In this document: in pieces, positions 2,697 through 58,045 of the stretch
Layout of the letters: each line of letters starts with the position of its first letter
Numbering within the stretch: position 1 is the stretch's first letter
Assembly: GCF_001748385.1 (NCBI RefSeq)
Contig: NZ_BCLI01000004.1
Location: forward strand, 558,001 to 622,000
Length of the DNA stretch: 64,000 nucleotides
Source: Vulcanisaeta thermophila
GTDB lineage: Archaea > Thermoproteota > Thermoprotei > Thermoproteales > Thermocladiaceae
Reading direction: 5' to 3'
Program-made: the position numbers and the translations under genes
The notes under the pieces: model-generated
The model's database searches: none
What the model was told of the DNA's origin: nothing
What the model saw: the letters and a program-made list of their open reading frames with translations, nothing else

Positions 2697-3716
2697 CTAA
2701 ACACCCCTTGTTTGCAGTAATTCCTCGGGTTTGAGGGTCCTCACGTCAATACCCACCATTGCGGATTTCTCGCTCACCATCTTCTGAGCCTCAACCACGG
2801 TCTCAGGGTCATCCCAGTACGCCGTGGCTAGCACAATGGCTTCGGCCCTCTGCCTCGGGTCCTGGCTCTTGAATATTCCAGACCCAACGAAGACCCCGTC
2901 AGCGCCGAGCCACATCATCAATGCCGCATCCGCGGGTGTGGCTATACCGCCTGCGGCGAAGGTTATCACGGGCAACCTACCCAACCTGGCGGTTAATGTG
3001 ACCAATTCCATGGGTACCTGGCACTGCCTTGCGAAGTCCCTGAGCCTCTCCTCATCACCCTCTCTATACGCCGAGCTTAACTCCTGAATGGCCCTGTTCA
3101 GAACCTTGAAGTGCTTGACCGCCTCGCTCACATTGCCCGTGCCAGCCTCACCCTTACTCCTAATCATACTGGCGCCCTCGGAAATCCTCCTAAGGGCCTC
3201 GCATAACTCCCTGCACCCGTTTACGAATGGTACCCTGAACATCCACTTATTGATGTGGTGCTGCTCATCCACTGGTGTTAGTACCTCGGACTCATCAATC
3301 AAGTCCACACCTATGGATTCCAGGAGCACAGCCTCGTAGTAATGCCTAATCCTCACCTTGGCACTCACGGGTATTGTTATGTGGTTCATCACGTCCTCAA
3401 TAACCTTCAAATCAGCCATCCTAGCCACGCCACCGGCCTTCCTAACATCGTAGGGTAGTTTATCCAGGACCATAACCCCAACGGCGCCCGCCTCCTCGGC
3501 AATCTGCGCCTGCTCCACATTGGTTACGTCCATGATCACGCCATTCCTAAGCATGGCTGGGAAGCCCACCTTAACATTGACAGTCCCTGGCAGGGCATTG
3601 GGCAACTTAACGGGCCACTGAACACCAACCTCCCTAAGCCTATCCCTAAACTCAAGCATGCCGTAGAGGAAGTCCCTGAGTTTATCCAGGTACTCAAGAC
3701 CGGGGGATATTGACAT
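2697..3716 (-). CDS. pdxS: Pyridoxal 5'-phosphate synthase lyase subunit PdxS
   Basis: TIM-barrel synthase that builds PLP from ribose 5-phosphate, glyceraldehyde 3-phosphate and ammonia, in a 12+12 complex with PdxT. Clear family blocks are [36 protein letters not shown] (Schiff-base Lys near residue 120), [17 protein letters not shown] (second lysine) and [12 protein letters not shown]. The N-terminus is about 40 residues longer than in bacterial PdxS and includes an extra helical segment. A GTG directly before the chosen ATG is also possible. It is the first gene of the pdxS-pdxT pair and divergent from queE. Confidence 0.95.
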
Positions 3717-3828
3717 CACGGGGTGATGCCTCGGGGTTAGATAAGCCTTGTTAAACGTTTAATAGCCATTTTCGTATTATTCATAATTATGAATTAGCAT
3801 TAAGAGGCCTCCCTGGCAGGGAGCACCA

Positions 3829-4524
3829 GTGAGGGTTGTAGAGGTCTTCAGGAGTAGACAGGGCGAGGGGCCGCACATGGGTGAGGAGGCGGTCTTCATA
3901 AGGCTAGCCTACTGTAACCTCTACTGCTCATGGTGCGACACCAAGTACTCATGGCACCCAGAAAAGGCCATAAAGCTTGGGTTTAAGGTAGAGACCCCAC
4001 GCACAATGGAGCTCACCGTGGATGGGGCAATAAACCTAATAACTAGCGTGGGCGATGGGGTTAACCACACAGTCATAACGGGCGGCGAACCCCTACTATG
4101 GAAGAGGGAGTTGATTGAGCTAACCAGTCGATTAAGGGGTATGGGCTGGCTCATTGAGGTTGAGACCAACGGAACCATAAGCCCCAGGGGCCTTGAGGGC
4201 ACTGTCGATGAGTTTAACGTATCCATCAAACTGGCCCACTCGGGGGTTCCAAGGAGGATTAGGATTAATGAGGGTGTAATCAAGGAATTCGTGAACCTAA
4301 ATAACTCGATTTTCAAGTTTGTGGTGAACTCATGGGATGATTACGATGAGATCCTGGAATTAATAACGCACTTCAAAATACCCAGGGACAGGGTCTACCT
4401 AATGAGCCAATGCACAACAAGGGAGGAGTGCACCGTGAAGGATGGGCAATTAACAAAACCCATGGCGAAAAAACTGGGTGTAAACCACACACCCAGGCTC
4501 CATATAATAATGGGCTTTAAATAA
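3829..4524 (+). CDS. queE: 7-carboxy-7-deazaguanine synthase QueE (radical SAM)
   Basis: Radical SAM enzyme that rearranges 6-carboxytetrahydropterin to 7-carboxy-7-deazaguanine, the precursor of archaeosine in archaeal tRNA. The cluster-binding motif C-N-L-Y-C-S-W-C (Cys 29, 33, 36) is followed by D-T-K-Y-S-W, and the N-terminal R-S-R-Q-G-E-G motif is the QueE hallmark. The SAM-binding glycine motif I-T-G-G-E-P lies near residue 85. It has 231 residues, close to the family size, and starts with GTG. No other preQ0 genes are in the window, so this one stands alone here. Confidence 0.9.
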   Translation: MRVVEVFRSRQGEGPHMGEEAVFIRLAYCNLYCSWCDTKYSWHPEKAIKLGFKVETPRTMELTVDGAINLITSVGDGVNHTVITGGEPLLWKRELIELTSRLRGMGWLIEVETNGTISPRGLEGTVDEFNVSIKLAHSGVPRRIRINEGVIKEFVNLNNSIFKFVVNSWDDYDEILELITHFKIPRDRVYLMSQCTTREECTVKDGQLTKPMAKKLGVNHTPRLHIIMGFK

Positions 4525-4733: not shown

Positions 4734-6185
4734 ATGGTACCCTCGGTGACACTGATGGAGAATATAGCGTCAGAGTCTCTGAGGGACGTGGTTGCTAAGA
4801 GTTCTGTTGAGGAGTTGCTGGGTCCTGCGGAGCAGGTTCCGTGGGAGGCTGTTATTAAGGGTAGGATTACCCGTGATATGGTTGAGGAGCTTAGTAAAAT
4901 TAAGGGTGAGCCTGATTGGATGAGGAGGCTCAGGTTGAGGGCCCTCGAGATGTTTGAGAAGTTGCCGGAGCCTAGGTGGTTGCCCATTAAGGAGGAGATT
5001 GACCTGGAGTCCCTGGTCCTTTACGCAAAGCCCAGTGTGGAGAGGGCTAAGTCCTGGGATGAGGTTCCGAAGGAGATTAGGAAGTACTACGAGGCCCTGG
5101 GGCTCCCTGACCTGGAGGCCAGGGTATTCGCTGGGTTACTGGGTCAGTTTGATTCGGAGGTTGTTTACCTGAATGTGAAGAAGCAGTTGGAGCAGAAGGG
5201 GGTAATAGTCACCACCATGGATGAGGCCGTTAAGAAGTACCCAGACCTGGTTAAGCAGTACTTCACCAGGGTATTCCCACCTGGTGAGCATAAATTCGCG
5301 GCATTGCACGTGGCCCTTTGGAGCGGGGGCACCTTCATATACGTACCACCTGGCGTTAGGGTTGAAATGCCCATAGAATCCTTCTTCCTAATAGGCAGTG
5401 CTGGTGAGGGCCAGTTTGAGCATTCCCTGATAGTGGCTGATGAGGGCTCATACGTGGAGTGGCTCGAGGGGTGCGCCGCGCCCATGTACAAGGGCTTCAG
5501 CTTCCACGATGGTATGGTGGAGGGCTACGCTGCCAGGAATGCCCACCTGAGGATTAACACGATACAGAATTGGAGTAGGAACATAATAAACTTCAACAAT
5601 AAGAGGGCGGTGGCCATGGAGAACGCTACGGTTGAGTGGGTGGAGGGGAGCCTTGGGAGTAAGGTGAGCTATACATACCCAAGCACGGTGCTTAAGGGCG
5701 AGGGTGCCAGGACGAGCATAATAGGCGTTACAATAGCCAACGGGCCCTTCTGGAAGGAGAACGGCGCCAAGGCATACCACGACGCACCGCGCACCTCAAG
5801 CAAGATAGTTAATAAGAGTATTAGTGTGAATGGTGGGACCGTGGTTTATAGGGGCCTTGTTTACGTCAGGGAGGGCGCCAAGTACGCCAAATCCTCGGTG
5901 AGCTGCGATTCGTTGATATTCGATGATAAGTCCAGGGCGTACACAATACCCCACGACCAAGTGTTTGAAGAGACCGCCGTGGTGACTCACGAGGCGTACA
6001 CGGGGAGGCTCAGTGAGGATAAGCTGTTCTACCTAAGGAGCCGCGGGCTTGATGAGGGTAGTGCCAGGAGTCTCGTGGTCCTCGGCTTCATACAGGACGT
6101 CCTGGTTAGGCTCCCCACGGAGTACGCAATGACGTTGAATAGGGTAATAGAGCTTGAGTTTGGGAAGTTGAGTAAGGTGGGGTGA
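4734..6185 (+). CDS. sufB: Fe-S cluster assembly scaffold SufB
   Basis: Scaffold subunit of the SUF iron-sulfur assembly machine, a beta-helix protein that works with SufD and the ATPase SufC. The 483-residue protein has the SufB-specific N-terminal helical region, the Y-V-P-P-G-V-R-V-E-M-P block, W-L-E-G-C-A-A-P, a long beta-helix core, and the conserved Cys in S-S-V-S-C-D-S at residue 391, which corresponds to the functional cysteine of bacterial SufB. The C-terminal A-R-S-L-V-V-L-G-F block is also conserved. It overlaps sufD, so the two are co-transcribed. No sufC is adjacent. Confidence 0.93.
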   Translation: MVPSVTLMENIASESLRDVVAKSSVEELLGPAEQVPWEAVIKGRITRDMVEELSKIKGEPDWMRRLRLRALEMFEKLPEPRWLPIKEEIDLESLVLYAKPSVERAKSWDEVPKEIRKYYEALGLPDLEARVFAGLLGQFDSEVVYLNVKKQLEQKGVIVTTMDEAVKKYPDLVKQYFTRVFPPGEHKFAALHVALWSGGTFIYVPPGVRVEMPIESFFLIGSAGEGQFEHSLIVADEGSYVEWLEGCAAPMYKGFSFHDGMVEGYAARNAHLRINTIQNWSRNIINFNNKRAVAMENATVEWVEGSLGSKVSYTYPSTVLKGEGARTSIIGVTIANGPFWKENGAKAYHDAPRTSSKIVNKSISVNGGTVVYRGLVYVREGAKYAKSSVSCDSLIFDDKSRAYTIPHDQVFEETAVVTHEAYTGRLSEDKLFYLRSRGLDEGSARSLVVLGFIQDVLVRLPTEYAMTLNRVIELEFGKLSKVG

Positions 6186-7393
6186 TGATGAACCCCAAGT
6201 GGCTTGTTGATGTTAAAAGCAAGGCTAAGGAATTGGTTGATAAGGTACCGTACCAGCAAATAAGGGATTCACCATCAGTCAAGTACTACACAGACTGGAC
6301 GAGGTTTGACAAGTGCCTAGACCCTGCACAACAGCACGTGACGTCCAACGTGGGCGTCACGAAGTACCAATTACCGCCGGCCAGCCTCCTCTCCATTAAT
6401 GGTTCCATAAGCACATCAAGGATACCCAGTAATGTTAATGCGTGGGAATTGAGTGAGTTGGGTGAGGATAAGGGCTCCCTGGTGCTTCGTTCCATGGACC
6501 CATCGGAATCCAAGGCGCTGGCTAGGCATGTGGCGAACCTGGTGGGTGGGGGTTACGTGGAGGTTTTACGAAGCCCCAATGAACCCCTCAGGATAATCAA
6601 CATCGCAAGGCTCGAGGACGGCGTATTAATACCCACGCACTACACGGTGGTTGTTAATGACGATACTGAACTAACCCTAATACTCTACATGATAAGTGAG
6701 CCAGGGAGTAATGCGTGCCCATCAACAACCATGGAGTTGTACCTAGGCAGTAACTCCACACTAAACCTGGTGGTGGCCTCGAGCCAGGAGGCCTCGCCCA
6801 GTTACGCATACATTAAGGTCATGGCTGGTGAAAACTCCACGGTGAATGCATGGACATTATTACTAAACGGCTCCATGAACCATCATAGGGAGGATTACGT
6901 GCTCAATGGACGAGGGGCCAGGGTTAGGCATGAGGGGCTTGAGATAGGCCTTGGGACATCCAGGATTGATTACATAGTTAACCTAATGCATGTTGGTGAG
7001 TCCTCCACATCATACTCAAGGGTCACTGGAGTATCGAAGGATAAGTCATTCGTAATACATAGGGGTTTGGGCAGAATAACCGAGAAGGCCAGGTGGAGTG
7101 ATACCACGGTGGAGGGTAAAGTATTCATACTTAACGAGGGCTCCTACGCGGCCTCCGTGCCCATAATAATGGTGGACACAGGCGATGTAAATGGTGCGAG
7201 GCACAGCGCTGCGGATGCTTCGTTGGATGAGGACCAGGTTAATTATCTCAGGTTGAGGGGTATTTCCAGGGATGAGGTTATCCCCCTGATTATCCATGAG
7301 GTCACGTCCAGATTCCTTGGATCAATACCCAGCGTATTAAGGGATGACGCACAGTTCCTAAGGGACTTAATAACCAGTAAGATCATTACTTAA
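6185..7393 (+). CDS. sufD: Fe-S cluster assembly protein SufD
   Basis: Partner of SufB in the SUF scaffold. The roughly 400-residue protein is a diverged beta-helix paralogue; its C-terminal third carries G-L-G-R-I-T-E-K-A-R-W, followed by D-E-D-Q-V-N-Y-L-R-L-R-G-I-S-R-D-E-V, the SufD/SufB C-terminal signature. The reading frame begins in the GTGA that overlaps the sufB stop, with ATG codons at 6185 and 6188. The middle is more diverged than in bacterial SufD, so it is assigned by position and by the C-terminal block. Its last 8 bases overlap the convergent methyltransferase gene. Confidence 0.87.
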   Translation: MMNPKWLVDVKSKAKELVDKVPYQQIRDSPSVKYYTDWTRFDKCLDPAQQHVTSNVGVTKYQLPPASLLSINGSISTSRIPSNVNAWELSELGEDKGSLVLRSMDPSESKALARHVANLVGGGYVEVLRSPNEPLRIINIARLEDGVLIPTHYTVVVNDDTELTLILYMISEPGSNACPSTTMELYLGSNSTLNLVVASSQEASPSYAYIKVMAGENSTVNAWTLLLNGSMNHHREDYVLNGRGARVRHEGLEIGLGTSRIDYIVNLMHVGESSTSYSRVTGVSKDKSFVIHRGLGRITEKARWSDTTVEGKVFILNEGSYAASVPIIMVDTGDVNGARHSAADASLDEDQVNYLRLRGISRDEVIPLIIHEVTSRFLGSIPSVLRDDAQFLRDLITSKIIT

Positions 7394-30999: not shown

Positions 31000-32376
31000 A
31001 TGAACCCTAATGATGAATTCATTAAATCAGTGGTTAATGAATTAGGTGATGATGTTTTAGTTAAGGGTGACGATGCATGGTCACTCAGGAGGGACTGGTG
31101 GCCATTACTAATGCTTAGGGAGGTTCTGGGCCAGGGTATTAACGTCCCAGTGGTCCTTAGGCCCAGGACTATTGAGGAATTGATAATTATTGTAAAGCTG
31201 GCGTGTAAATATGGTGTTGGCATCGTACCATTTGGCGGCGGTAGTAGTGTTGTTGGTGGTTCGTATCATAATGGCAATGTTATTATTGACCTATCAATGC
31301 TCAATAAAATACTCAATTTTAACAGCGATGATCTACTGGTCACGGTGGAGGCCGGCATTAAGGTTCGTGATTTAGAGGCTTGGCTTAATGAAAGGGGCTT
31401 TACCCTAGACTTTCACCCTCAATCATTTCAATTACTAACTGTAGGCGGCGCCATTGCTCACGGGGCCACGGGATCCCACGACATGAGCAATATTGAGGAA
31501 CTCACCCACTCAATTGATGTGGTGCTACCCAATGGTGAGTTAGTGAGTCTAGGGGTAAGGGGAGCACCCAGGGCATCCCTTGGTCCAGACCTCAAGCGGC
31601 TCTTCATAGGTTCTGAAGGTACCCTTGGTTTCATAGTTAGGGCTACGCTTAAGGTCAAGCCCCTGGCTAACGTCGCCCTTGACAGGGCTTACGTGTTCCC
31701 AGACGTAAGGAGCGCCCTGTCCTTTGCGAGGGAGTGCTCCATTAAATTACCACATCCACTGAGGCTCGTGATCCATGATAATGAGAGTAGCAGGTTATTC
31801 CTGGGTATGGATAACACAGTAGCGTTGCTGAGGATTAGGGGTTATATGAATGAGTTGGTACAGTTAATGGCGAATATTACAGACGGCATTGCAAGGTCAT
31901 ATGGTGGTGAGATTAGTGAGGCATCACTTATTAGTAAGTGGAGGTATGTATTCTCCAGGGAGTATGAGAGGCAGTTAGGTGAGTTGGTGCGTAGTGGTTA
32001 TTGGGTGGAGACGTTGGACACAGCGGGTACCTGGACTGTGCTTAATAAGGCGTATTGGGAATTAACCGCAAGGTTGCACGGAATTAAGGGTGTGGACCTT
32101 GTTCTTACCAGGTTTACGCACTTCTACCTAAATGGTGCATCTATGTATGTAGTGGTTGTTTTCAGGCAAAGTGAGGAGACTTACTGGAGGATTTGGGAGG
32201 TAACTGCCGAGGTTATGCATAAATACGGGGGGACAATCTCTCATCACCACGGTATTGGATTACTGAAGAGGCGATGGCTCATTAAGGAACTGGGTGGTGG
32301 GCAGTATGAGTTACTGAGGAGGATTAAGGGTGTGTTGGATGATGCTGGGATCATGAACCCTGGAAAACTCGTTTAA
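31000..32376 (+). CDS. FAD-linked oxidase of the alkyl-DHAP synthase type, copy 2
   Basis: A 458-residue paralogue of the protein encoded at 27.8 kb. The FAD segment F-G-G-G-S-S-V-V-G is near residue 79, G-S-E-G-T-L-G-F-I-V near 208, and the C-terminal N-G-A-S-M-Y-V-V and S-H-H-H-G-I-G (about 414) match AGPS. Some blocks differ from copy 1: H-G-A-T-G-S-H-D replaces the M-S-S-G-Q-F region, and the end reads I-M-N-P-G-K-L, as in glycolate-oxidase-like enzymes. The copies are therefore old duplicates that may act on different substrates or as partners. The ATG lies 39 bases after the acyl-CoA synthetase stop, suggesting one transcript. Confidence 0.75.
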   Translation: MNPNDEFIKSVVNELGDDVLVKGDDAWSLRRDWWPLLMLREVLGQGINVPVVLRPRTIEELIIIVKLACKYGVGIVPFGGGSSVVGGSYHNGNVIIDLSMLNKILNFNSDDLLVTVEAGIKVRDLEAWLNERGFTLDFHPQSFQLLTVGGAIAHGATGSHDMSNIEELTHSIDVVLPNGELVSLGVRGAPRASLGPDLKRLFIGSEGTLGFIVRATLKVKPLANVALDRAYVFPDVRSALSFARECSIKLPHPLRLVIHDNESSRLFLGMDNTVALLRIRGYMNELVQLMANITDGIARSYGGEISEASLISKWRYVFSREYERQLGELVRSGYWVETLDTAGTWTVLNKAYWELTARLHGIKGVDLVLTRFTHFYLNGASMYVVVVFRQSEETYWRIWEVTAEVMHKYGGTISHHHGIGLLKRRWLIKELGGGQYELLRRIKGVLDDAGIMNPGKLV

Positions 32377-32460
32377 GTAGAGGCGCTATGTTTTTAGTTA
32401 AGTCCATTAGTTCCCGCATGGTGAGCGGATTGGTCTTTGCTGATTAATGATGAGTGCACA

Positions 32461-32856
32461 TCAGGGCGAGTAACCTCCTGCGATTAGGTAGTTCTCGATC
32501 CTCTTGATGAATTTCTCTGCTTTTTCAATCTCCCTTTCAAGGTCCTCCATGGTTATTAACCCCTCGTAAAATCCGTCACCATGTAGTCTTTGAAACCTGG
32601 CGTTGTACTGGTCATAAACACCCTCAAGCTCTGGGTACCTCTCCTCAATCATCCACAGGGCATCCCTCCTCTCCCTATGGCTCATGGGTCTCCTGCCCAG
32701 CAATGCCATTATTAATGCATCAGCTGCCTGGACAACAGCATTCCAAGCCTTCTCAGCGGCGTCTCTAGCCAGCACAGGGTCACTTCTCTCCCTAGCCATT
32801 AGGTACTCCTCCTTGGCTGCCTTGAGGAAATTCCACGCATCCTGTATTAAATCCAT
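32461..32856 (-). CDS. PaREP1-family HEPN-like protein
   Basis: A 131-residue all-helical protein. The pattern D-A-W-N-F-L-K-A-A-K-E-E-Y, A-E-K-A-W-N-A-V-V-Q-A-A-D-A-L, then a short loop with R-R-P-M-S-H-R-E-R-R-D-A-L matches PaREP1 proteins, a family amplified in Thermoproteales and related to HEPN domains. HEPN proteins are often toxins or parts of toxin-antitoxin or RNA-processing pairs. The usual catalytic R-x4-6-H is not clearly present, and no nucleotidyltransferase partner lies next to it, so it may be a non-toxic stand-alone member. It is a single minus-strand gene between the AGPS-like and hydroxyacid-dehydrogenase genes. Confidence 0.7.
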   Translation of the reverse strand: MDLIQDAWNFLKAAKEEYLMARERSDPVLARDAAEKAWNAVVQAADALIMALLGRRPMSHRERRDALWMIEERYPELEGVYDQYNARFQRLHGDGFYEGLITMEDLEREIEKAEKFIKRIENYLIAGGYSP

Positions 32857-48349: not shown

Positions 48350-49489
48350 ATGGAGGTTGTTGGTGGTAAGGCTCGGGAGGGGTTTAAGTACCACGTTATT
48401 TCCGAGATTAATGGTAGGATTAGGCTCAGGATTAGTGAGGATGCCAAGTCTAGGCTCATGAGGGCTGGTTACGGAATATTTAATCACTCCACGGTGGAGC
48501 TTTGCCACTGGACCAAGAGTGCTCTTACCCAGGGGCCCAGTTGTTATAAGTTTAAGTTTTACGGAGTCCCCGCGGGTGGTTCCCATAGGTGTGTGGAGTT
48601 TAGTCCCGTGGGTATGATTTGCAGTAATAAGTGCGTCTATTGTTGGAGGCCCACGGACTCCTTCGACTCTTTCATACCCAATGCCGATTACCTTGACGAC
48701 CCTGTGGAGTTGGTTCAGGGTATTCTTAGGGAGAGGTATAGACTCCTCACGGGGTACTTCGGAAACCCCAAGGCTAGGGAGAGGGCTAAGGAGGCCCTGA
48801 CGCCCACTCATTGGGCCATTTCATTGTCCGGCGAGCCCACCATGTACCCAAAATTGCCGGAGCTTGTTAAGTACCTCAAGTCCCTCCCCAGCACGAGGTC
48901 CGTCTTCATAGTGACCAATGGCCAGTATCCCGAGATGCTCGAGAGGCTTGAGAGGGAGGGTGCATTACCCACGCAGCTTTACCTGTCCTGCAACGCACCC
49001 AATAGGGAATTATTCTACAGGATCAACGTGCCCGTTTTGAACAGGGATGATGCCTGGGAGAGGTGGTTGAGGAGCCTTGAGTTGCTCAGTAGGTTGAATA
49101 CCAGGACCATAATCAGGATAACCCTGATAAGGAGTTTGAATTACGATCCCAAGTATATACCCGAGTTCGCGAGGTTAATGCTCATTGGTAACCCACACTT
49201 CATTGAGGTTAAGTCCTACATGCACCTGGGACACTCCACGTATAGGCTCAGTAAGAGTGACATGCTTTATCACCGTGAGATTAGGGAGTGGGCCCTGAAG
49301 CTCCTTGAGGAGATTAATAGGTTGGGTGGTAACTTCAGGTTCATGGATGAGGATGAGCAGAGTAGGATTGTGGTTCTACAGAACATGAGTAGGTATGTTG
49401 ATAGGTGGATAGTGCGCCCTGAGGATCAGCCAAAGCTCAGCGAGGCTGATGTGCAGAAGTTATCCAGCGCCCTTAAATCCTCGATGTAG
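48350..49489 (+). CDS. taw1: tRNA 4-demethylwyosine synthase Taw1 (TYW1)
   Basis: Radical SAM enzyme that makes the tricyclic 4-demethylwyosine from m1G37 of tRNA-Phe and pyruvate. The SAM cluster motif C-S-N-K-C-V-Y-C-W is at Cys 91, 95, 98; extra cysteines at 52, 65 and 81 match the second [4Fe-4S] cluster of archaeal Taw1. S-L-S-G-E-P-T-M-Y-P near 164 is the SAM motif. The 379 residues are somewhat longer than typical archaeal versions. Its last 64 bases overlap the convergent endonuclease V gene. Confidence 0.93.
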   Translation: MEVVGGKAREGFKYHVISEINGRIRLRISEDAKSRLMRAGYGIFNHSTVELCHWTKSALTQGPSCYKFKFYGVPAGGSHRCVEFSPVGMICSNKCVYCWRPTDSFDSFIPNADYLDDPVELVQGILRERYRLLTGYFGNPKARERAKEALTPTHWAISLSGEPTMYPKLPELVKYLKSLPSTRSVFIVTNGQYPEMLERLEREGALPTQLYLSCNAPNRELFYRINVPVLNRDDAWERWLRSLELLSRLNTRTIIRITLIRSLNYDPKYIPEFARLMLIGNPHFIEVKSYMHLGHSTYRLSKSDMLYHREIREWALKLLEEINRLGGNFRFMDEDEQSRIVVLQNMSRYVDRWIVRPEDQPKLSEADVQKLSSALKSSM

Positions 49490-50208
49490 TGATCCCTCAG
49501 GTAATTGGTTATCTTCCTCTTTAGTGCGTTGGCCACGTTGTGTGAGTGGAGTATGGGTATTGGCATTTGTGACCCCACGCACAGCCTCCTAACTAACTCA
49601 ACGGCACTCCTCAGTGAGACCCCATGCCCAACGCTCACGTACGTGGGCTTACTGGACGCGCACCTCAGTGCCCACCCAATGACCTCGCCAGTGCCTGGAT
49701 CCAGCACCGGCCCCTCAATACTATCCACCCTACCGTAGAGTAGAGACTTAGCCACACCCACAGTGGGTATGCCCATGCAAACGCCAAAGTGACTCGCTAT
49801 CCCAAGCCTATACGGGTGCGCCCTGCCGTGCCCGTCCACCAGCACCACCTGGGGTTTCTCCCTGAGTCTCATGTAGGAGCCCACCATGGGCTTCAACTCC
49901 CTAAAGGATAACAACGTAGGTATATACGGGAACCTGACCTCACCAACCCAGCAACTCACATCCACAATGGACCTCCTGGTCATGGAGTATGTGCTGGCCA
50001 CGGAAACCCCAACCTCGTGATTAGCAATGTTTATGTAAGCCACATCTAAACCCGCCACCGTGTCCACACTATCCATGCTTATCAAGTCACTCTCAATGAC
50101 CCTGCCCGCGAGGGTTCTTTGGATCCTCCTTGCAACGGTTAGGTTGAAGTTGGGCGGTATCCTTGACCTCACAAAGGATTCGCTGGGTCCCCTACTGACC
50201 CTTGCCAT
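49426..50208 (-). CDS. nfi: Endonuclease V
   Basis: Repair enzyme that nicks DNA near deoxyinosine. The 260-residue protein contains V-A-G-L-D-V-A-Y (first Asp), F-P-Y-I-P-T-L-L-S-F-R-E (Glu), V-L-V-D-G-H-G (second Asp) and P-T-V-G-V-A-K-S, with the wedge and catalytic residues of the family. The C-terminal 20 residues are antisense to taw1. Its start overlaps the thiI 3' end by 17 bases, suggesting a shared transcript with thiI. The segment 49820-49923 has an exact copy elsewhere in the window. Confidence 0.93.
   Translation of the reverse strand: MARVSRGPSESFVRSRIPPNFNLTVARRIQRTLAGRVIESDLISMDSVDTVAGLDVAYINIANHEVGVSVASTYSMTRRSIVDVSCWVGEVRFPYIPTLLSFRELKPMVGSYMRLREKPQVVLVDGHGRAHPYRLGIASHFGVCMGIPTVGVAKSLLYGRVDSIEGPVLDPGTGEVIGWALRCASSKPTYVSVGHGVSLRSAVELVRRLCVGSQMPIPILHSHNVANALKRKITNYLRDHYIEDLRALDNFCTSASLSFG
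49820..49923 (-). repeat. 104-bp exact repeat, copy inside nfi
   Basis: This interval, read on the minus strand, is identical base for base to 57084-57187 read on the plus strand. It encodes the central endonuclease V segment from the P-T-L-L-S-F-R-E block through the catalytic V-D-G-H-G-R. The other copy belongs to a truncated nfi fragment. Confidence 0.9.
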
Positions 50209-51652
50209 ATGAATCCCTCAATTTCTCAATGCTTATCGAGAACGCCCTGTAGCCCATTCTCCTTAGTTCCGATGCTACGAACCTACTACTCAACCCCCTG
50301 CTGCAGTATAGTACGTAAACCCTGTCCTTACCCATGGACTTTACGAGATCCATTACATTATCAATGTTGGCATTTATCGCCCCTGGGTAATGCCACGACT
50401 CATACTCAGGCTTACTCCTTAGGTCTATGACCACGGCATCCCTAGGCACAACATCAATATCCACGTCCTGGGAGTCCTCTAGGGCCTTCAGGACCTCGGG
50501 TATTGAGCTTGCCTTTATGGTGACCATGGTGCTTAACGCCTCATCTATCAACCCCGGGCTCAATTTCGAGACCTCGGCCTCCACATCCTCCGGTGTTGCC
50601 CTTGTCCTGGGCTTCTCTGAGAATATGGCGCAGAATTCCTCGTTCTTTATTGATAATTCGTAGGTCCCAATCATCCTCGCGTAACTCACAATTTCGTCCT
50701 TGTCAAGCCCTATCAATGGTCTGTATATGGGTATGTCAATCCCGTGGCTCGCGGCCATTAGGTTGTGGAGTGTTTGTGATGAGACCTGCCCCAGGGACTC
50801 CCCCGTGACTATGCCCAATGCGTTTGTGGACTTGGCAATGGCCTGGGCTATTCTGTAGAGTATGTGTTTGTAAACCACATTCCATAGGTGCGGGTTAACA
50901 GTACCCCTTATCTCATTCACCAACCCTGAGCAATTAATTATGTGTATTGACGCGTCGTAACCAATGGACCACCTACTGAATAATTCATGGGCAACCCTGA
51001 GAAAGCCCAGTGTATCCAGTGGGTGTGCCAGGGAGCAGAACATGGCATCCACGTAGGCCCCCCTCTTCATCATGAACCAGGCGGCCACGGGCGAGTCCAG
51101 CCCTCCTGATATCAACGCCAGGACCTTGCCTTCAGAGCCCAGTGGGAGCCCACCAGGCCCCTTAACAACCTCATGGAAGAGGTACGCCCTGTCACCCCTA
51201 ACCTCTATGTGAAGCTCCACATCGGGCCTCTCCAAATCCACACCCCTGGCGTACTGCCTAAGTGCGGCGCCCACCTCCCTATTTATGTCCATTGACGTGA
51301 AGCCATGCACCCCAACCCTGTGACTCCTCACCGCGAATACCTTATCCTTAACGAGGGACGCCCACTCCCTAACCGCGGCATTGACTATATCATTTATGCT
51401 GTGGACCACGTACTCACGGGCTGGCGCCACGAACTTAACACCGAAAACCCTACTCACCAGGTCCACCGCATCCTTAGCCCTGTCATCACTAACCTCCACA
51501 AGCAACCTACCCTGCGACCTACTAACCCTCGCCTCAATGCCCGCTTTCTTCAATCCCTCCATTATATTCCTCATTAGTAGGTTCTCCATCCTCCTCCTGG
51601 TTCCCGGGCCCTTTATGGCAACCTCACCATAACCAATGAGCAGCACAACCAT
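50192..51652 (-). CDS. thiI: tRNA 4-thiouridine synthetase ThiI with rhodanese domain
   Basis: Sulfurtransferase that makes s4U8 in tRNA and may also serve thiazole synthesis. Domain order in the 486 residues: N-terminal ferredoxin-like/THUMP region (about 1-170), PP-loop ATPase with I-S-G-G-L-D-S-P-V near 181, and a C-terminal rhodanese domain whose loop Y-C-S-R-G-L-S-S holds the persulfide Cys. Cys in N-E-E-F-C-A-I-F-S matches the second catalytic cysteine of bacterial ThiI. A TATA-like box (revcomp near 51672-51682) gives a leaderless start at the ATG 51652. It overlaps nfi. Confidence 0.93.
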   Translation of the reverse strand: MVVLLIGYGEVAIKGPGTRRRMENLLMRNIMEGLKKAGIEARVSRSQGRLLVEVSDDRAKDAVDLVSRVFGVKFVAPAREYVVHSINDIVNAAVREWASLVKDKVFAVRSHRVGVHGFTSMDINREVGAALRQYARGVDLERPDVELHIEVRGDRAYLFHEVVKGPGGLPLGSEGKVLALISGGLDSPVAAWFMMKRGAYVDAMFCSLAHPLDTLGFLRVAHELFSRWSIGYDASIHIINCSGLVNEIRGTVNPHLWNVVYKHILYRIAQAIAKSTNALGIVTGESLGQVSSQTLHNLMAASHGIDIPIYRPLIGLDKDEIVSYARMIGTYELSIKNEEFCAIFSEKPRTRATPEDVEAEVSKLSPGLIDEALSTMVTIKASSIPEVLKALEDSQDVDIDVVPRDAVVIDLRSKPEYESWHYPGAINANIDNVMDLVKSMGKDRVYVLYCSRGLSSRFVASELRRMGYRAFSISIEKLRDSYGKGQ

Positions 51653-51751
51653 TTACACACTAATGTTATCACCTCCCTTTAAAACACATACGCCCACCAC
51701 AGTAGGGAATAAAAACACCAACACATTAATTAGGCAAGGCCCTCCGGCGTG

Positions 51752-51804
51752 GGCCCTGGAGGTGGGCTCAGCCCACCAATGAATTGGGCTCCTCCAAGGG
51801 GGCC
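51752..51804. other. Three-way-junction inverted repeat in the thiI/amidase gap
   Basis: Strong nested complementarity: GGCCC (51752-51756) with GGGCC (51800-51804), TGGAGG (51757-51762) with CCTCCA (51791-51796), enclosing the hairpin GTGGGC-TCA-GCCCAC (51762-51776, about 6-7 bp) and a small CCAA-TGAA-TTGG hairpin (51776-51787). Either strand could fold into a compact junction RNA. The element lies upstream of the thiI TATA box, so it is not in the thiI leader; on the minus strand it lies about 170 bases beyond the amidase stop. The rest of the 320-base gap is T-rich on the plus strand with nothing recognised. Confidence 0.45.
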
Positions 51805-51973
51805 AAAAACCCTCCCTACAATGGGATTTGTGGTGGTTGTGGACTAGGCCTGGTTTTGTTTTGGTTTTGTAAGGTGATCGGTTGTGGTTTGTTCAATACT
51901 TATTAGCTATGTTTTTATGTTTTATGGTTTATATTTAGTATCATGAGCACAGGATTACTGTGGTTGCGGATAG

Positions 51974-53494
51974 TTATGAATATAGTTTGTTTATTTCTAT
52001 TGCGTGTGCTATGTTTAGTATTGTTTCTTCGTTTAAGTGTTTGGTTACTAGCATCATTCCAATTGGTAATCCGTTTAATTTACAGCAGGGTATTGATAGT
52101 GCTGGGTGTCCGGTTACGTTGAATGGTGCGGTATTGTATAGCATGCCGGCTGTCATTAATAGCATTAGTTCAGGTGTTGGGTTGTCTATGAATTTGAGTG
52201 GTTTTTGTGGGGTGGTGGGCATGAGTAATGCGTCGAATTTTGTTAATGCATTGTCGTAGACTTTTCTTAGATCTAATGCTAGGTTTCTGGCTTTTGCATA
52301 GTATACGTTGTTGTACCTGGTTATCATGTAGTAGCCGAGTACTGCGGCTGCCTTAACGTTTAATGGTAATTCACTGGACATGGTTTTGAGGACATTGCCA
52401 AAGAATTCGGCTAATTGCCATTCGAGGTAGCCGCTTCTCCAGCCGACCCCTGAGGCTAGGAGCATATTGGCTACAGCGCCTTCGATCATTATTGGTGTCC
52501 AGATGGTCATGCCTAACTTGTGCATTGGTATTGAAACCTCCTCAACGTTTGCTCCTAGGTCGCGTAGTTTATCGGCGGCTTCCTTGACGGCCTTGTTTAC
52601 ATCCTCCTCGGAAACGGGCCATTCAAAGCCCTCCTTTACGATTCCTATTTTTAATCCCTTAATGCTGCCCGTGAGCAATTTTGTGTAAGGTTTGACAGGG
52701 GGTCTTGGTAGGTCGCTGGGTTGCCTGGGATCTAGGTCGTCTCTGCCTGCAATAACCTCAAGTGCTATGGCTAAGTCCTCGACTCTGCGTGCTATTGGTC
52801 CCGCGTGGTCTAATGTGGGTTCTATTGTGGCGATTCCTGTGTATGGTACTAAGCCGTACGTTGGTTTAAGCCCGTAAACCCCACTCCATGCGCTTGGGAC
52901 CCTTATTGAGCCGCCCTGATCGGCGCCTATCGCTACATCGCATACGCCTGTAGCGACGGCTACGGCTGCGCCGCTAGATGAGCCACCACTCATGTATTCG
53001 GGGTTAATAGGGTTTAGTACTGGTGTTGGGTATGATGTGAAGCTGCCACCTGAGAAGCTGAGTGCTTCACAGGTTGTTTTTGCAACTATGTGTCCTCCTT
53101 CGTTAAGTATTCTTATGACGACGGTAGCATCAATTTCGGGTACAAAGCCCTCGAGTATTTTTGAGCCGTGTAGCATTGGTACGCCAGCGATCATCACGTT
53201 ATCCTTAACGCAGAATTTCTTGCCGTTAAATTTACCATTGTCTTTGCCCTTGATGTCAGTGAGGAAGGCTATGGCACCGTAAGGATTCTCCTGAGGGTTT
53301 GGTCTTCTCCATGTCCTGGAGTAGGGTGCACGTAATGAGTTGGAGGTTTCGTCGCTGATTTTATCAAGTTCATTATATGATAGTATTAGTAATTTAATTG
53401 CGGATTGTATTGCTGTGATTTCCTCATCGTTTAGGTGAATACCTATTTTTGTGGCTAAATCCCTGATTTCTGTGGCTGAGGGGGTTCTGGGCAT
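51974..53494 (-). CDS. Amidase (amidase-signature family)
   Basis: Ser-cisSer-Lys hydrolase of 506 residues. The triad is visible: Lys 97 in C-V-K-D-N-V, the cis-Ser in M-S-G-G-S-S-S-G near 172, and nucleophile Ser 196 in D-Q-G-G-S-I-R-V-P. It could cleave aliphatic or aromatic amides; GatA-type tRNA amidation is unlikely because no gatB/gatC neighbours exist. Codon choice is more T-rich than in most of the window. With the permease and formamidase 0.8 kb upstream it forms an amide-use group. An AT-rich promoter (53525-53545) precedes the ATG. Confidence 0.82.
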   Translation of the reverse strand: MPRTPSATEIRDLATKIGIHLNDEEITAIQSAIKLLILSYNELDKISDETSNSLRAPYSRTWRRPNPQENPYGAIAFLTDIKGKDNGKFNGKKFCVKDNVMIAGVPMLHGSKILEGFVPEIDATVVIRILNEGGHIVAKTTCEALSFSGGSFTSYPTPVLNPINPEYMSGGSSSGAAVAVATGVCDVAIGADQGGSIRVPSAWSGVYGLKPTYGLVPYTGIATIEPTLDHAGPIARRVEDLAIALEVIAGRDDLDPRQPSDLPRPPVKPYTKLLTGSIKGLKIGIVKEGFEWPVSEEDVNKAVKEAADKLRDLGANVEEVSIPMHKLGMTIWTPIMIEGAVANMLLASGVGWRSGYLEWQLAEFFGNVLKTMSSELPLNVKAAAVLGYYMITRYNNVYYAKARNLALDLRKVYDNALTKFDALLMPTTPQKPLKFIDNPTPELMLLMTAGMLYNTAPFNVTGHPALSIPCCKLNGLPIGMMLVTKHLNEETILNIAHAIEINKLYS

Positions 53495-54070
53495 GTGTCT
53501 GTGTTACCTTGTATTTAATAAATATTTTGGATAGGAAAAATATATAATTATCTACACCTAGCATATAGCTAGAGAGTTTGTTATTGAGAATTTTATAGAT
53601 GCGGGGCAATAATTCATAAGTATTAAAATTACGCACTAACATAATGCTTAATGAGGAGGGACTAGCGGCACATTACTTGAATGAATCAGTAGATAATGCG
53701 TTGAGAAGTACATTTTTCACAAAGCAAATCTAGTAAAATAGTCTTAAGTACCGGGCATAATCGTGACATAGAGATAACAAGGCAGGGTTAATACTACGGT
53801 TATACCCAAGATAATGAGGATAATTAAGGGTGAAGTAGCTAATAGAAAGAACATAACTATATTAGCCATCTTCCCTGAATTATTAATTGCCTGGGTGTGG
53901 GTTATTGGGGTTATATTGTGAGGGCTATGGTGGAGAATGTAGCATTAAATATTAATGGGCATTTTAGTAAGCCTTTTATGCATATTGCTTTCATTAATAT
54001 AATAACATTGTCATAGCACCTAAAATCGCATCCTCCTTGAGGAAGCTCACGTACTCACTACATGTGTTCT

Positions 54071-54092
54071 TCAGAACTACGCAAAGTTCTGA
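54071..54092. repeat. Hairpin in the gene-poor gap
   Basis: TCAGAACT (54071-54078) and AGTTCTGA (54085-54092) form a perfect 8-bp stem with a 6-base loop ACGCAA. Hairpins like this occur at ends of IS200/IS605-type elements, but no transposase or TnpB sequence is visible beside it. Confidence 0.4.
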
Positions 54093-54271
54093 GTCCCTAA
54101 TGAGCTGAAGGATCTAATGGATTTTAGTAACTGGTTCTCTAGGGTTAATCTGAGCCGTTGATCAAGAATGTTCGAAGTCACTGTCCCATGTTATCTAATG
54201 GGTGGTTATGGGAATAATGGATAGAGGTATTATTTCAGGAGTATTCTATAGGGGATTTATTTAGGGTAAAG

Positions 54272-54284
54272 CTTAAAAATTTAT
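54272..54284 (+). promoter_or_regulatory. TATA box of the second APC permease gene
   Basis: CTTAAAAATTTAT lies about 30 bases before the ATG at 54309, consistent with a leaderless start there rather than at the GTG 54300. Confidence 0.5.
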
Positions 54285-54308
54285 AGACTACATAGCTCCG
54301 TGGGTTCC

Positions 54309-55694
54309 ATGGATTCTTCAACCGGTTTAAAAAGAGGTGTTGTGACTTTTCTAGAACTTGTTTTTCAGTCCATAAGTTTCACGGCCCCTGGTATAGCTGC
54401 CCTGGCTACGCTTAGTGGTGCAGTGGCCTTTGCCTATGGTTCCACACCCCTCGCTGTGCTCTTGGCTGCATTTGGTGTTGCCTCAGCTGCATATGCGGTT
54501 TATGAATTCTCGCTTAAGGTGGCGTCCAGTGGTGGGTATTATAGGTATATTGAGAGGGGATTTGGTCCTAGGGTTGGTACCTGGGGTGGTTGGTTGTACA
54601 TATTGTACGCGGGCATTGGAGCAACGCCATTCATTTACCTTGAGACAGCCTTAACAGTTCAGTATGGCTTGTCTGCATTGGGTGTTAACTTACCGGATTG
54701 GTCCTGGTACCCGCTGGGTATTGCTGATGCCCTGCTTGCCTTGGTGCTGCCTTACCTGGGAATTAAGCCCTCGGTTAGGTACATGCTGTGGACTGGTATG
54801 ATAGAGATGGCGGCTTTAATGCTCGGTGGCGCAATAATAATTGCCCTGTCCCCAAGGCCCTGGGATCCACTTGTATTTACACCAACCTACGCTCCCGGTG
54901 GTTGGTCGGGTGTTGGTATGGGCTTGATCTTCGCCTTCACGGCATTTGCTGGCTGGGGCTCTATGGTATTCTTAGGTGCAGAGGCTAAGGAGGCGCACAT
55001 GAATATTAGGAGGGGTGTCATAACAGTGATACTACTGCTTTCAGTATTCTTCGTGTTCATGAGCTATGCCTTGATAATAGGCTGGGGGCCCAGTAATGCC
55101 TCTACTTATTTTCAATACTTCATACCTGGAATTGTAGAGGCCGTTAAGTACGGCTTATATCCTATGGCCGTAATATGGTTAATACTTGTAATAAATAGTG
55201 GGTTTACCGATACAATGGCCATACTCAATGCAGTCTCTAGAGATATCTACACAATGTCTAGGGATAATGCCTTGCCTCGGTGGTTTTCAATTACTCATCC
55301 TAAGTATAGGACGCCTCATAGGGCGTTGGTTATTGATACGGTAATTGGCTTGATATTATTCACGGTGCTCGGCTGGACGTTGGGGCCATTAAATGCGTTC
55401 TTAATCACTGGTCTTTGGGGTGGTATTGCTACATCCATAGAGCATTTACTGGTGAATACGGCACTACCTTTGTACTCGAGGAAAAAGGGGTTCTTCAAGT
55501 GGACGCATGTTGTTGTGCCTTCGATATCGTCTGTACTTTACATATTCGTCCTTTACGCCACCGCAGTAACCACCGCAGTAAGCTTGCCGGTAATCATTGC
55601 GGCCATTTTCCTAGTGGCCTGGTTCGTGGCCACAGCAATTATATCCTGGGTAAGACCAGCAAAACCCCAAATCGAAGCTGGTGAGGAGTTATGA
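54309..55694 (+). CDS. APC-superfamily permease, second copy
   Basis: A 461-residue transporter with about 12 predicted helices. The N-terminal G-V-V-T-F-L-E-L-V-F-Q-S-I-S-F-T-A-P-G-I helix and the Y-R-Y-I-E-R-G-F-G-P-R-V-G-T-W segment are typical of the amino acid permease/APC group. It differs clearly from the permease at 35.7 kb. The formamidase gene starts within its last codons (ATGA overlap), so the two are translationally coupled and the permease likely imports an amide, amine or amino acid used by the neighbours. Confidence 0.85.
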   Translation: MDSSTGLKRGVVTFLELVFQSISFTAPGIAALATLSGAVAFAYGSTPLAVLLAAFGVASAAYAVYEFSLKVASSGGYYRYIERGFGPRVGTWGGWLYILYAGIGATPFIYLETALTVQYGLSALGVNLPDWSWYPLGIADALLALVLPYLGIKPSVRYMLWTGMIEMAALMLGGAIIIALSPRPWDPLVFTPTYAPGGWSGVGMGLIFAFTAFAGWGSMVFLGAEAKEAHMNIRRGVITVILLLSVFFVFMSYALIIGWGPSNASTYFQYFIPGIVEAVKYGLYPMAVIWLILVINSGFTDTMAILNAVSRDIYTMSRDNALPRWFSITHPKYRTPHRALVIDTVIGLILFTVLGWTLGPLNAFLITGLWGGIATSIEHLLVNTALPLYSRKKGFFKWTHVVVPSISSVLYIFVLYATAVTTAVSLPVIIAAIFLVAWFVATAIISWVRPAKPQIEAGEEL

Positions 55695-56626
55695 TCACTA
55701 TTGACGGGACTAAGGAGGAGAACTTGCACTTTAAGTGGAGTCCCGATCTAAGACCCATTGCTTATGTTAGGGATGGTGATGAGGTTAGGGTCATAATACC
55801 GGACTCCTCAACAATGCAGATAAAGCCGGGTATGACTACGGAGGATCTAGCCAAGCTGAGTTCCTCAAAGTTTGATGCAGCAGTCGGGCCTATCTATGTT
55901 GAGGGTGCTGAGCCTGGTGATGCCTTAGCCATTGATATACTGGATATACAGGTGGGTGATTGGGGTTGGTCCGCAATACTTAGTTTCATAGGTCTATTAA
56001 AGGGTAGGTTTAGGGATTTACTCGTTCATTGGAGAATTAGTAATGGCTATGCCGAGACCATGGGCGAGTTCCTCAGGGGCATTAGGGTGCCTGTTAGGCC
56101 ATTCCTTGGGGTTATTGGGGTTGCGCCTAGGGATGGTGTGTTCGGCATGATACCACCGCAGTACTTCGGTGGTAATATGGATAATAGGCTTCATGGGGTT
56201 GGGGCCAGGGTTTACTTACCTGTTAGTGTGAGGGGTGCGTTGCTGTCGCTGGCTGATCCGCACGCTAGCCAGGGAGATGGCGAGGTCACGGGCACGGCGA
56301 TAGAAACGAATGCGACTGTTAAGATTAGGGTTAACGTCGTTAAGGGCTTGAACATAAGGAGGCCGTTCACGGTGGCCCCAGTTAGGGATGAGCCTACAGA
56401 TGTCATTGCAACCATGGGAATATCCAATGACCTGTATCAAGCGGCTAGGGATGCTCTTGAGGATATGCTGTCAATATTGGGTAAGCTATATGGCTTGACG
56501 CCTGAGGAGGGTTATGTGTTGAGTAGTGTAGTTGGTAATCTGAGGATCTCAGAAATAGTTGATGAGCCAAACTATGTGGTAACGTTAACAATACCAAGGA
56601 ATATACTAGAAAGACGAAAAAATTAG
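55691..56626 (+). CDS. fmdA: Acetamidase/formamidase family protein
   Basis: A 311-residue FmdA-type hydrolase that releases ammonia from short-chain amides. The family features are V-G-P-I-Y-V-E-G-A-E-P-G-D, G-G-N-M-D near residue 160 (metal-binding loop), D-P-H-A-S-Q-G-D-G-E-V near 190 and R-D-E-P-T-D near 235. Together with the coupled permease and the amidase across the gap it forms a nitrogen-scavenging module. No regulator is seen next to it. Confidence 0.88.
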   Translation: MITIDGTKEENLHFKWSPDLRPIAYVRDGDEVRVIIPDSSTMQIKPGMTTEDLAKLSSSKFDAAVGPIYVEGAEPGDALAIDILDIQVGDWGWSAILSFIGLLKGRFRDLLVHWRISNGYAETMGEFLRGIRVPVRPFLGVIGVAPRDGVFGMIPPQYFGGNMDNRLHGVGARVYLPVSVRGALLSLADPHASQGDGEVTGTAIETNATVKIRVNVVKGLNIRRPFTVAPVRDEPTDVIATMGISNDLYQAARDALEDMLSILGKLYGLTPEEGYVLSSVVGNLRISEIVDEPNYVVTLTIPRNILERRKN

Positions 56627-56686
56627 TTTTAGCGATATGTTAGTGTTAAATTATGTCGCATATCCATTACGCTTAACTATTACTAA

Positions 56687-57085
56687 TTAAATTCTCTTTC
56701 TGTCGAAGACCTCCGAAAAACCAATACCCAGGTATAATGGGCCGTCAATCACCAGAACACTGCTTCCCAGGGATTCCTTACTCACGGCTTCAACGGCTCT
56801 GTTCTCCAGGTTCATTCGTAATTCATCACCTATCAGTGTATCATTCTTAATGGATGAGTAGTATGCACCATTCTCAACATCGCTTTTGACCCTTATCCCC
56901 TTGATCTTCCCATCAATTTCCCTTAAAACCTCCTCACCAGCCTTTAACCCAATGAACGCCTCACCACCCAGATCCAAGGCCTTACCCATCAAGCCCGGGT
57001 GAGTGCTCAAAGGTACGCCATTATAGTTCCATATTGATTTTGCGTCATCCTTGCTTTTTAAATACTCCTTAAGCTCCCCATACAT
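56687..57085 (-). pseudogene. Truncated NurA-like nuclease fragment
   Basis: A 132-codon frame starting at ATG 57085. It contains E-N-R-A-V-E-A-V near residue 94 and V-L-V-I-D-G-P-L-Y-L near 110, a pair resembling the second motif region of the NurA 5'-3' nuclease, which normally runs to 300 or more residues. Here the protein stops soon after, so the C-terminal catalytic half is missing. The frame continues 12 codons upstream to 57121, but that part is antisense to the duplicated nfi fragment. The family assignment is moderate; it may alternatively be a short diverged member. Confidence 0.45.
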
Positions 57086-57209
57086 ACCTACGTTGTTATC
57101 CTTTAGGGAGTTGAAGCCCATGGTGGGCTCCTACATGAGACTCAGGGAGAAACCCCAGGTGGTGCTGGTGGACGGGCACGGCAGGGCCTGCGCCAGAGGG
57201 TTTAGTTAG
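57078..57209 (+). pseudogene. Endonuclease V gene fragment (partial duplicate of nfi)
   Basis: One frame reads P-Y-I-P-T-L-L-S-F-R-E-L-K-P-M-V-G-S-Y-M, continues through V-D-G-H-G-R-A, then diverges and stops at 57207-57209. The stretch 57084-57187 is exactly identical to nfi 49820-49923 in the opposite orientation. Just left of the exact part, the P-Y-I codons match the nfi protein but differ at two bases. Both ends of the gene are missing, so it is not functional. Confidence 0.85.
57084..57187 (+). repeat. 104-bp exact repeat, copy in the fragment patch
   Basis: Identical to the minus strand of 49820-49923 in nfi, so the two copies form an inverted pair about 7.2 kb apart. Recombination between them could invert the intervening segment that contains thiI, the amidase and the permease/formamidase genes. 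Confidence 0.9.
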
Positions 57210-57345
57210 GGTTACTGGCATAGTGACCCTGGACTCCGTGATAAGGTCGCTACCTGAGTTCATTGGTAGGGAGAGCCTGGTTAGGCTTAATGCCGAGGCC
57301 GTTAAGATGGGTTATGACCGAGGTGTATGGGCATACCTTAATTAA
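57205..57345 (+). pseudogene. C-terminal fragment of a 2-oxoacid:ferredoxin oxidoreductase gamma subunit
   Basis: The frame reads V-T-L-D-S-V-I-R-S-L-P-E-F-I-G then L-V-R-L-N-A-E-A-V-K-M-G-Y-D and ends at TAA 57343-57345. The L-N-A-E-A motif followed by a G-Y segment is the C-terminus of gamma subunits of POR/IOR-type enzymes. It is not the same as the intact porC at 43.7 kb, which ends differently. It directly abuts the nfi fragment, and no start codon or N-terminal part exists. Confidence 0.65.
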
Positions 57346-57374
57346 CCAATGATTAACCTGGGATGTTTCACCGC

Positions 57375-57992
57375 CTAGAGCCTGAGGGGTTGGAGTGGTA
57401 TTGTTTCTTCGCTTGTTCCATTGCTCGTTATTGTGAGTATGTCTATGCCGTCCCCAGACACTGGGTCCCTGGATATGCTCTGGGCTATGGCCTTCACGGC
57501 CAGGTCCCTGGCCTCCTTAACGCTCATACCACTCCTGTAATTGCTCTCCAGGATCGCGATGGCCAGTTTGGTCCCCGTGCCCACCGCTGCGTAGTCGTCC
57601 TCTATTAATGAGCCCAGGGAGTCCATTATGAAGAGGTGGGGCCCCTCATCATCCACACCGCCCACGATCACCTCCACGAAGTATGGGAGTATCCTGTTTG
57701 AGAATAGTACGTAGGATAGTAACTTGGCGGCTGACCTAATACTGGGCCTTGTTTTTGTGTCCATTGCGTAGAGTGACATGTATGCCTTGGCTATCTTTGT
57801 CAGGACCTGCATGTCAGCCACTATGCCTATTGAGGCAATCCCAATATTATCATTAACCTTAAACACCTTCTTACCAGACCTACTGAACATTGTGAATCCG
57901 TAGGAAACCCTCTTCTCAGCCGCTAAAACCACACCATCACTCGCCTTTATACCCACGGCGGTCCCAGTTATTAGCTCCTCCACTGATGACAT
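57375..57992 (-). CDS. psmB: Proteasome beta subunit, apparently non-catalytic type
   Basis: Beta subunit of the 20S proteasome (205 residues). The fold is intact: D-G-V-V-L-A-A-E-K-R, S-G-K-K-V-F (active-site Lys position), and G-S-L-I-E-D-D-Y-A-A-V-G-T-G. At the N-terminus the sequence is T-G-T-A-V-G-I; aligned without gaps to catalytic subunits (T-T-T-V-G-I), the essential Thr1 position holds Gly 10, while Thr lies one residue before and one after. This resembles the inactive beta1-type subunit of crenarchaea, which works with a separate catalytic beta2. The ATG at 57992 is preferred to the TTG just upstream. It is divergent from the next gene. Confidence 0.85.
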   Translation of the reverse strand: MSSVEELITGTAVGIKASDGVVLAAEKRVSYGFTMFSRSGKKVFKVNDNIGIASIGIVADMQVLTKIAKAYMSLYAMDTKTRPSIRSAAKLLSYVLFSNRILPYFVEVIVGGVDDEGPHLFIMDSLGSLIEDDYAAVGTGTKLAIAILESNYRSGMSVKEARDLAVKAIAQSISRDPVSGDGIDILTITSNGTSEETIPLQPLRL

Positions 57993-58045
57993 CAAATCAA
58001 TGGGTTAAGGAGCATTTATAAATTTAAGCTCAGTAATTACCATTA

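Follow-up and report, generated by a model that had tools for sequence, protein, structure and literature searches.

In the human genome, class 2 TSIPs are pieces of distant loci found at breaks; as described in the passages on them in PMC5110952, they have neither a target-site duplication nor poly(A), and non-templated bases are present at their junctions. The patch of gene pieces reported here for the archaeon Vulcanisaeta thermophila resembles them in that its nfi and gamma pieces have intact donors in the same genome, the site is empty in 10 of 11 sister genomes, there is no duplication or terminal repeat, and a 17-bp filler appears non-templated. It differs from the human insertions, which are often RNA-derived, in being archaeal, in containing several pieces in a row and in showing no sign of an RNA origin. 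At yeast double-strand breaks, template switching guided by microhomology inserts short sequences that come from distant loci or are inverted, according to the abstract of PMC11724301. Those breaks were induced, whereas the V. thermophila patch is known from its sequence alone. In the bacterium Acinetobacter baylyi, short intragenomic segments reportedly replace unrelated sequence, giving the short-patch substitutions of Harms et al. 2016. Judged by its title, no other prokaryotic work comes closer as a precedent, particularly for the second case presented below (genome G011). It concerns a bacterium, whereas the pieces reported here are archaeal and 37-113 bp long, with the main patch at an insertion junction.

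Archaeal double-strand break repair remains unclear, as stated in the abstract of a 2025 study of Saccharolobus (PMC12019639). In passages of that study, Saccharolobus islandicus, which has no Ku, uses the primase PriSL to anneal ends at 2-4 GC pairs, followed by non-templated addition and extension. The indels reported there are mostly 1-2 bp, and fillers copied from genes are absent from these passages. Microhomology end joining in Haloferax gives junctions of 3-5 bp (a passage of PMC2700283). By analogy, these two routes show that archaea would have suitable chemistry, although fillers of ~100 bp are unshown in either. Marker exchange in Sulfolobus occurs in small discontinuous patches with little exchange beyond 300 bp (a passage of PMC9899855, citing earlier work), a pattern that would agree with short tracts. 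In the literature searched, to which subscription papers mostly did not belong, no archaeal templated insertion was recognizable by title or by the start of an abstract. Insertions of this kind are thus already on record for human cells, for yeast and, to judge by a title, for Acinetobacter, and no archaeal report was found in that literature.

The stretch analysed, called the window throughout, comprises 64,000 nucleotides of V. thermophila CBA1501 (G000:C4:558001-622000). Contig C4 has 634,758 bases and contig C1 has 791,731, in an assembly of 2,022,594 bases and 10 contigs. The features of the locus, in window positions, are as follows.

49426..50208, minus strand: nfi, the donor gene (Endonuclease_5, E = 2e-55)
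50192..51652, minus strand: thiI, the neighbour of psmB in sister genomes
51737..51807, plus strand: H/ACA-like small RNA region (PyrR201-like, under the gathering score), on the other side of the insertion
51808..56626, no strand: inserted block with the H/ACA-like RNA on one side and the patch on the other, missing from the site in sisters
51974-53494, minus strand: amidase, in the inserted block
54300-55694, plus strand: amino-acid permease, in the inserted block
55691-56626, plus strand: acetamidase/formamidase, in the inserted block
56687..57121, minus strand: NurA-like ORF of 144 codons, with NurA homology at ~56715-57025 only
57026..57076, no strand: ~50 bp between the NurA homology and the nfi piece, without an assigned source
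57084..57187, plus strand: nfi (endonuclease V) piece, an exact 104-bp inverted copy of 49820-49923
57188..57204, no strand: 17-bp filler between the nfi and gamma pieces
57205..57317, plus strand: piece of a 2-oxoacid:ferredoxin oxidoreductase gamma subunit gene (POR domain), 111 of 113 bases identical to G000:C1:499924-500036
57318..57374, no strand: 57 bp from the gamma piece to the psmB stop
57375..57995, minus strand: psmB, proteasome subunit, marking the patch side of the insertion

The patch of ~660 bases is a patchwork of copied gene scraps at an insertion junction. When window positions 56620-57380 were searched against the whole genome, three other matches were obtained, namely the nfi gene, the gamma gene and a match of 38 bp at 84%. 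The last of these (57033-57070 against G000:C1:678391-678428, E = 2e-4) is TATA-like and lies at the 5' end of an unrelated ORF; it is probably due to chance and was set aside. All three pieces are far above chance, the two copied ones by BLAST and by base-by-base comparison. The nfi piece corresponds to the middle of the gene, and beyond the 104 bp both flanks diverge, apart from a weaker extension down to 57077 with 2 mismatches (111 bp at 98% in BLAST, E = 2.5e-49). The gamma piece corresponds to the 3' part of a 185-codon POR-domain gene (PF01558, E = 4e-31) on another contig, C1; its frame reaches a stop at 57345, but reading past 57317 is by chance only. Both donor genes are intact. The corresponding genes of the genus sisters match the pieces far less well, at just 69-76% for nfi and 72-88% for gamma; hence, both donors belong to V. 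thermophila itself. A search with 57318-57374 gave no source, its best other match in the genome being 23 bp at 87% (E = 0.24), and the 19-mer 57187-57205, which covers the filler, occurs nowhere else in the genome even when up to 3 mismatches are allowed.

The original prediction had described three abutting gene fragments and suggested that pieces of chromosomal genes had been captured there, for example through illegitimate end joining or repair. This interpretation is supported on the whole. All three pieces are indeed present within 660 bases, but they do not lie edge to edge, as 17 bp separate nfi from gamma and ~50 bp separate NurA from nfi. The proposed search of the genome for source genes succeeded for nfi and gamma, at 98-100% identity. 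It returned no close source for the NurA piece, leaving a chromosomal origin of that piece unsupported.

The order and orientation of psmB, thiI and nfi are kept in 10 of 11 sister loci (tblastn of window genes). For the eleventh, G010, 5 kb was examined, in which psmB is present and thiI is absent. The psmB-thiI interval measures 225-1184 bp in the ten sisters versus 5,722 bp in V. thermophila. Sister intervals contain a conserved H/ACA-like stretch and a C/D-box-like RNA (Rfam, under gathering scores; the H/ACA match was scored in the V. thermophila locus only). In the sisters the H/ACA-like stretch lies directly between psmB and thiI, and in V. thermophila it adjoins thiI, at 51737-51807; therefore, the extra DNA has psmB on one side and this stretch on the other, and the patch fills its psmB-side junction. 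In the comparison with sister species that had been proposed, the patch is absent from the orthologous site in 10 of 11 sisters, and so is the whole adjoining block. On this comparison, which went beyond what the original prediction could see, the patch is one junction of a lineage-specific insertion.

A common word of at least 10 bp, direct or inverted, was sought between 51640-51990 and 57060-57400 as a sign of a target-site duplication or terminal repeat, and none was found. Pfam detected no transposase or integrase among the main genes from nfi to 58.4 kb, in line with what had been noted for the patch. The permease and acetamidase genes are paired at other loci in genomes G011 and G004 without the amidase, and the DNA homology of 76-80% covers these two genes only. 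The amidase occurs in one of the 11 sisters, G001, as a gene alone (90% protein and 83% DNA identity), and a passage of the published CBA1501 analysis places an amidase among the strain's singletons (PMC5069417).

Several other features of the region were seen in passing. In V. thermophila there is no C/D-box-like RNA in the gap from the H/ACA-like stretch to thiI, where the sisters have one, and 84 bp are left there; a stretch with the motif TTGGTCTTTGCTGA, common to the sister C/D-box-like RNA, is present at window position 32430 (region 32374-32463). Genomes G002 and G003 contain ~0.8 kb of other sequence (L074 ~3300-4490 and L073 ~5350-6535, respectively) on the side of the H/ACA-like stretch where the V. 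thermophila island also lies; the spot thus seems to have been entered more than once. Elsewhere in the window, the intergenic stretch 1811-2101 resembles, by eye, the C-terminal part of a purK-type gene that has been disrupted and is interrupted in frame by a stop codon; it has no near-identical copy in the genome.

We consider it probable that the patch is a scar left by error-prone repair of a break at one junction of the lineage-specific insertion, and is neither a gene nor a mobile element. The ancestor had psmB, the H/ACA-like RNA, thiI and nfi as neighbours, an arrangement in which the nfi donor lies ~2 kb from the patch site. In the V. thermophila lineage, as the comparison of loci shows, the amidase-permease-acetamidase block entered between psmB and the H/ACA-like RNA. 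The broken end on the psmB side may then have been bridged by short gene pieces serving as filler, in the order NurA-like middle piece, 104 bp of inverted nfi, the unique 17-bp filler and the 113-bp gamma piece. That this was a break repair and a single event is our inference, and the patch may have arisen separately from the island. As the donors are intact, the pieces were either copied or derived from extra DNA that was captured. Short bouts of synthesis on wrong templates, repeated a few times, could have done the bridging, as could the joining of captured fragments. A Ku-independent primase end joining, as in Saccharolobus, would be a plausible candidate for the enzymatic activity.

In order to see how rare such patches are, we surveyed 1.664 Mb of four Vulcanisaeta genomes (464 kb of C4 and 400 kb each of G008, G011 and G004), a design that detects donors only within the same stretch. 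In C4, the nfi piece is the sole pair of at least 95% identity in the self-comparison of 464 kb; it is also the sole exact inverted repeat of at least 20 bp within 10 kb, and none was found in one block-shuffled control. When a further 39.6 kb of the window was compared with the whole genome, other matches did not exceed 89%, except for four of 28-32 bp at 91-97%, two of which lie in the tRNA-Glu gene. The survey yielded one further clear case, so that like cases occur in only two of the four stretches, which counts against reading the patch as a repair scar.

This second case is located at G011:C1:608717-608753 (L146), where 37 bp are the exact reverse complement of 607219-607255 within an ORF 1.46 kb away, called rhomboid-like here from a reading of its sequence by eye. 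At the orthologous site in G008 (L127) both flanks agree almost base for base with those of G011, and they enclose ~50 bp of unrelated sequence versus ~40 bp in G011. The rhomboid-like ORF of G008 retains the donor region (31 bp at 94%). G008 is thus, on sequence comparison, the before state, and in G011 the stretch was replaced by an inverted copy of a piece of a nearby gene. By eye, ~3 bp (TGG) are common to donor and recipient at one edge.

The other repeats of the survey are of different kinds, and the labels Cren7, tRNA, CRISPR and TnpB given to them come from reading the sequences, with no family search. The 400 kb of G004 contain no exact inverted repeat of at least 20 bp within 10 kb. 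In G008, the inverted repeats among the matches listed all fall at 1601-1613 kb, a CRISPR region, and there is also one 35-bp direct repeat. Pairs of at least 93% identity were set aside when they represented CRISPR repeats, one palindrome and a Cren7-like ORF pair (G008) or a Cren7-like ORF pair, a tRNA pair and one palindrome (G004); a 38-bp pair of G011, with one copy beside a TnpB-like ORF, was likewise set aside as it includes no gene-fragment patch. The Cren7-like copies (G008:C1:1397426-1397624 and 1637780-1637978; G004:C1:145582-145773 and 176524-176715) are 99-100% identical within each species and have unrelated flanks. These pairs of 192-199 bp show what may be signs of ongoing gene conversion between short paralogues.

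The second case bears on how the pieces arrived. They could have been captured as physical DNA fragments, for example debris of a sister chromosome or DNA of lysed kin, and ligated into the break. Loose DNA would fit the gamma donor, which is located on another contig, and the NurA piece, for which no close source was found in this genome; the intact state of the donors would fit it too. Captured fragments, however, should have donors anywhere in the genome, whereas in both clear cases, the patch and the 37-bp copy of G011, a donor is nearby and inverted, as expected of strand switching within one region. For this reason we favour microhomology-guided template switching as likelier than capture, which we regard as unlikely. 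For the main patch there is no before-and-after reference near enough to score microhomology at the junctions, and template switching there is suggested by the arrangement of the copies.

An assembly artefact, in which reads were chimerically joined in a short-read draft, has to be weighed as well, and we find it quite improbable. According to passages of PMC5069417, CBA1501 was sequenced with MiSeq pairs of 300 bases (mean insert 852 bp, 688-fold coverage) and assembled with CLC, the result being a draft of 10 contigs. Copies of ~100 bp are of a size that can mislead short-read assemblers, and the patch lies only 19-20 kb from the end of contig C4. Against this, read pairs of that length, insert size and depth span every piece plus its flanks. 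Moreover, unique sequence flanks the array, the 17-bp filler is itself unique, the array falls exactly at a real synteny junction, and the like event in G011 is found in a genome consisting of a single contig.

The comparison of the gamma piece with its donor raises a further alternative. Positions 57205-57304 are 100 consecutive identical base pairs, and the two differences, at 57305 and 57315, fall within the last 13 bp. In an alignment of 10 sister gamma genes, the A at 57305 matches nine of them and the T at 57315 also matches nine. Such sister-like differences at the outer edge of the piece are not predicted by simple recent copying; they could reflect chance, a donor that has since changed, or an older copy that later underwent gene conversion. 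If the last were general, nfi and gamma would be older duplications whose cores were later homogenised with their donors. The difference-free cores of 104 and 100 bp with diverged outer edges would suit this, as would the agreement of the gamma differences with most sister genes, and ectopic homogenisation looks active in the genus, as the Cren7-like pairs of G008 and G004 indicate. However, an original short-patch insertion would be needed anyway, and two differences in one piece are few; we therefore give this explanation very little credence.

The first 13 codons of the NurA-like ORF are nfi sequence in antisense, and the ATG at 57083-57085, the second in the ORF, does sit at the boundary of nfi as had been pointed out. 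The match to Pfam NurA is weak (E = 0.018, under the curated cut-off) and covers profile positions 60-106 of 254. Sister NurA-type genes match the ORF at 31-45% (best E = 3.7e-11), and their proteins, of up to 392 aa, align to codons 33-136 or less. The first conserved motif, DGSS in relatives of ~390 aa, is missing, as is nearly everything after the second, DGP; the ORF thus does not contain a complete NurA domain with both conserved aspartate motifs. Because of these two losses and of the nfi antisense start, we take the piece to be cut at both ends and to encode no working nuclease. It is a middle piece, both protein ends being missing, and not the N-terminal piece it had been taken for.

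A search of the V. thermophila genome with E values up to 1 gave no second copy of the NurA piece, only a distant NurA on contig C6 (36%) and nfi itself. The genome collection yielded three named Vulcanisaeta contigs at just 35-36%, and no match to the ORF protein was obtained in viral contigs or in the plasmid and phage collections. Since no source was found, the piece may have come in with the inserted block as a passenger, or it may be a remnant of older date. Its closest relative, in G008, adjoins an ATPase ORF that looks HerA-like, judging by a sequence motif. Our guess is that the piece came from an accessory HerA-NurA locus.

That the 144-codon ORF is a real small NurA-type gene, as an open frame of this length with NurA homology might suggest, has next to no chance of being correct given that it has no DGSS motif and nothing beyond DGP, that its start region is nfi antisense and that the 10 sisters keeping the neighbourhood have no ortholog at the site. 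Had a homologue matched the combined patch over its full length, the patch would have been one real gene or a known element; none was found in 41 genomes at the DNA level or with the NurA-like ORF protein, nor with that protein in the plasmid, phage and viral collections.

As a single locus, the patch looks functionless and would be a curiosity without a likely function. A broader proposal, which we put forward tentatively and regard as rather doubtful, is that Thermoproteales possess a recurrent Ku-independent route by which gene copies of ~40-110 bp are written into breaks and rearrangement junctions, the template often being inverted and nearby, and that mosaic scars therefore mark the entry of new gene blocks. 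The V. thermophila patch would then be a multi-step example and the rhomboid copy of G011 a single-step one, its before state surviving in G008.

Little is known of how archaea that have no Ku mend chromosome breaks and acquire new genes, and scars with identifiable donors are a record of the templates used by repair. If such scars are common, the route would be testable from genomes alone, some archaeal orphan ORFs and gene fragments would be explained, and the manner in which new gene blocks are stitched in would be revealed. The patch, together with the smaller example in a sister genome, hints that archaeal repair may fill breaks with short copies of genes.
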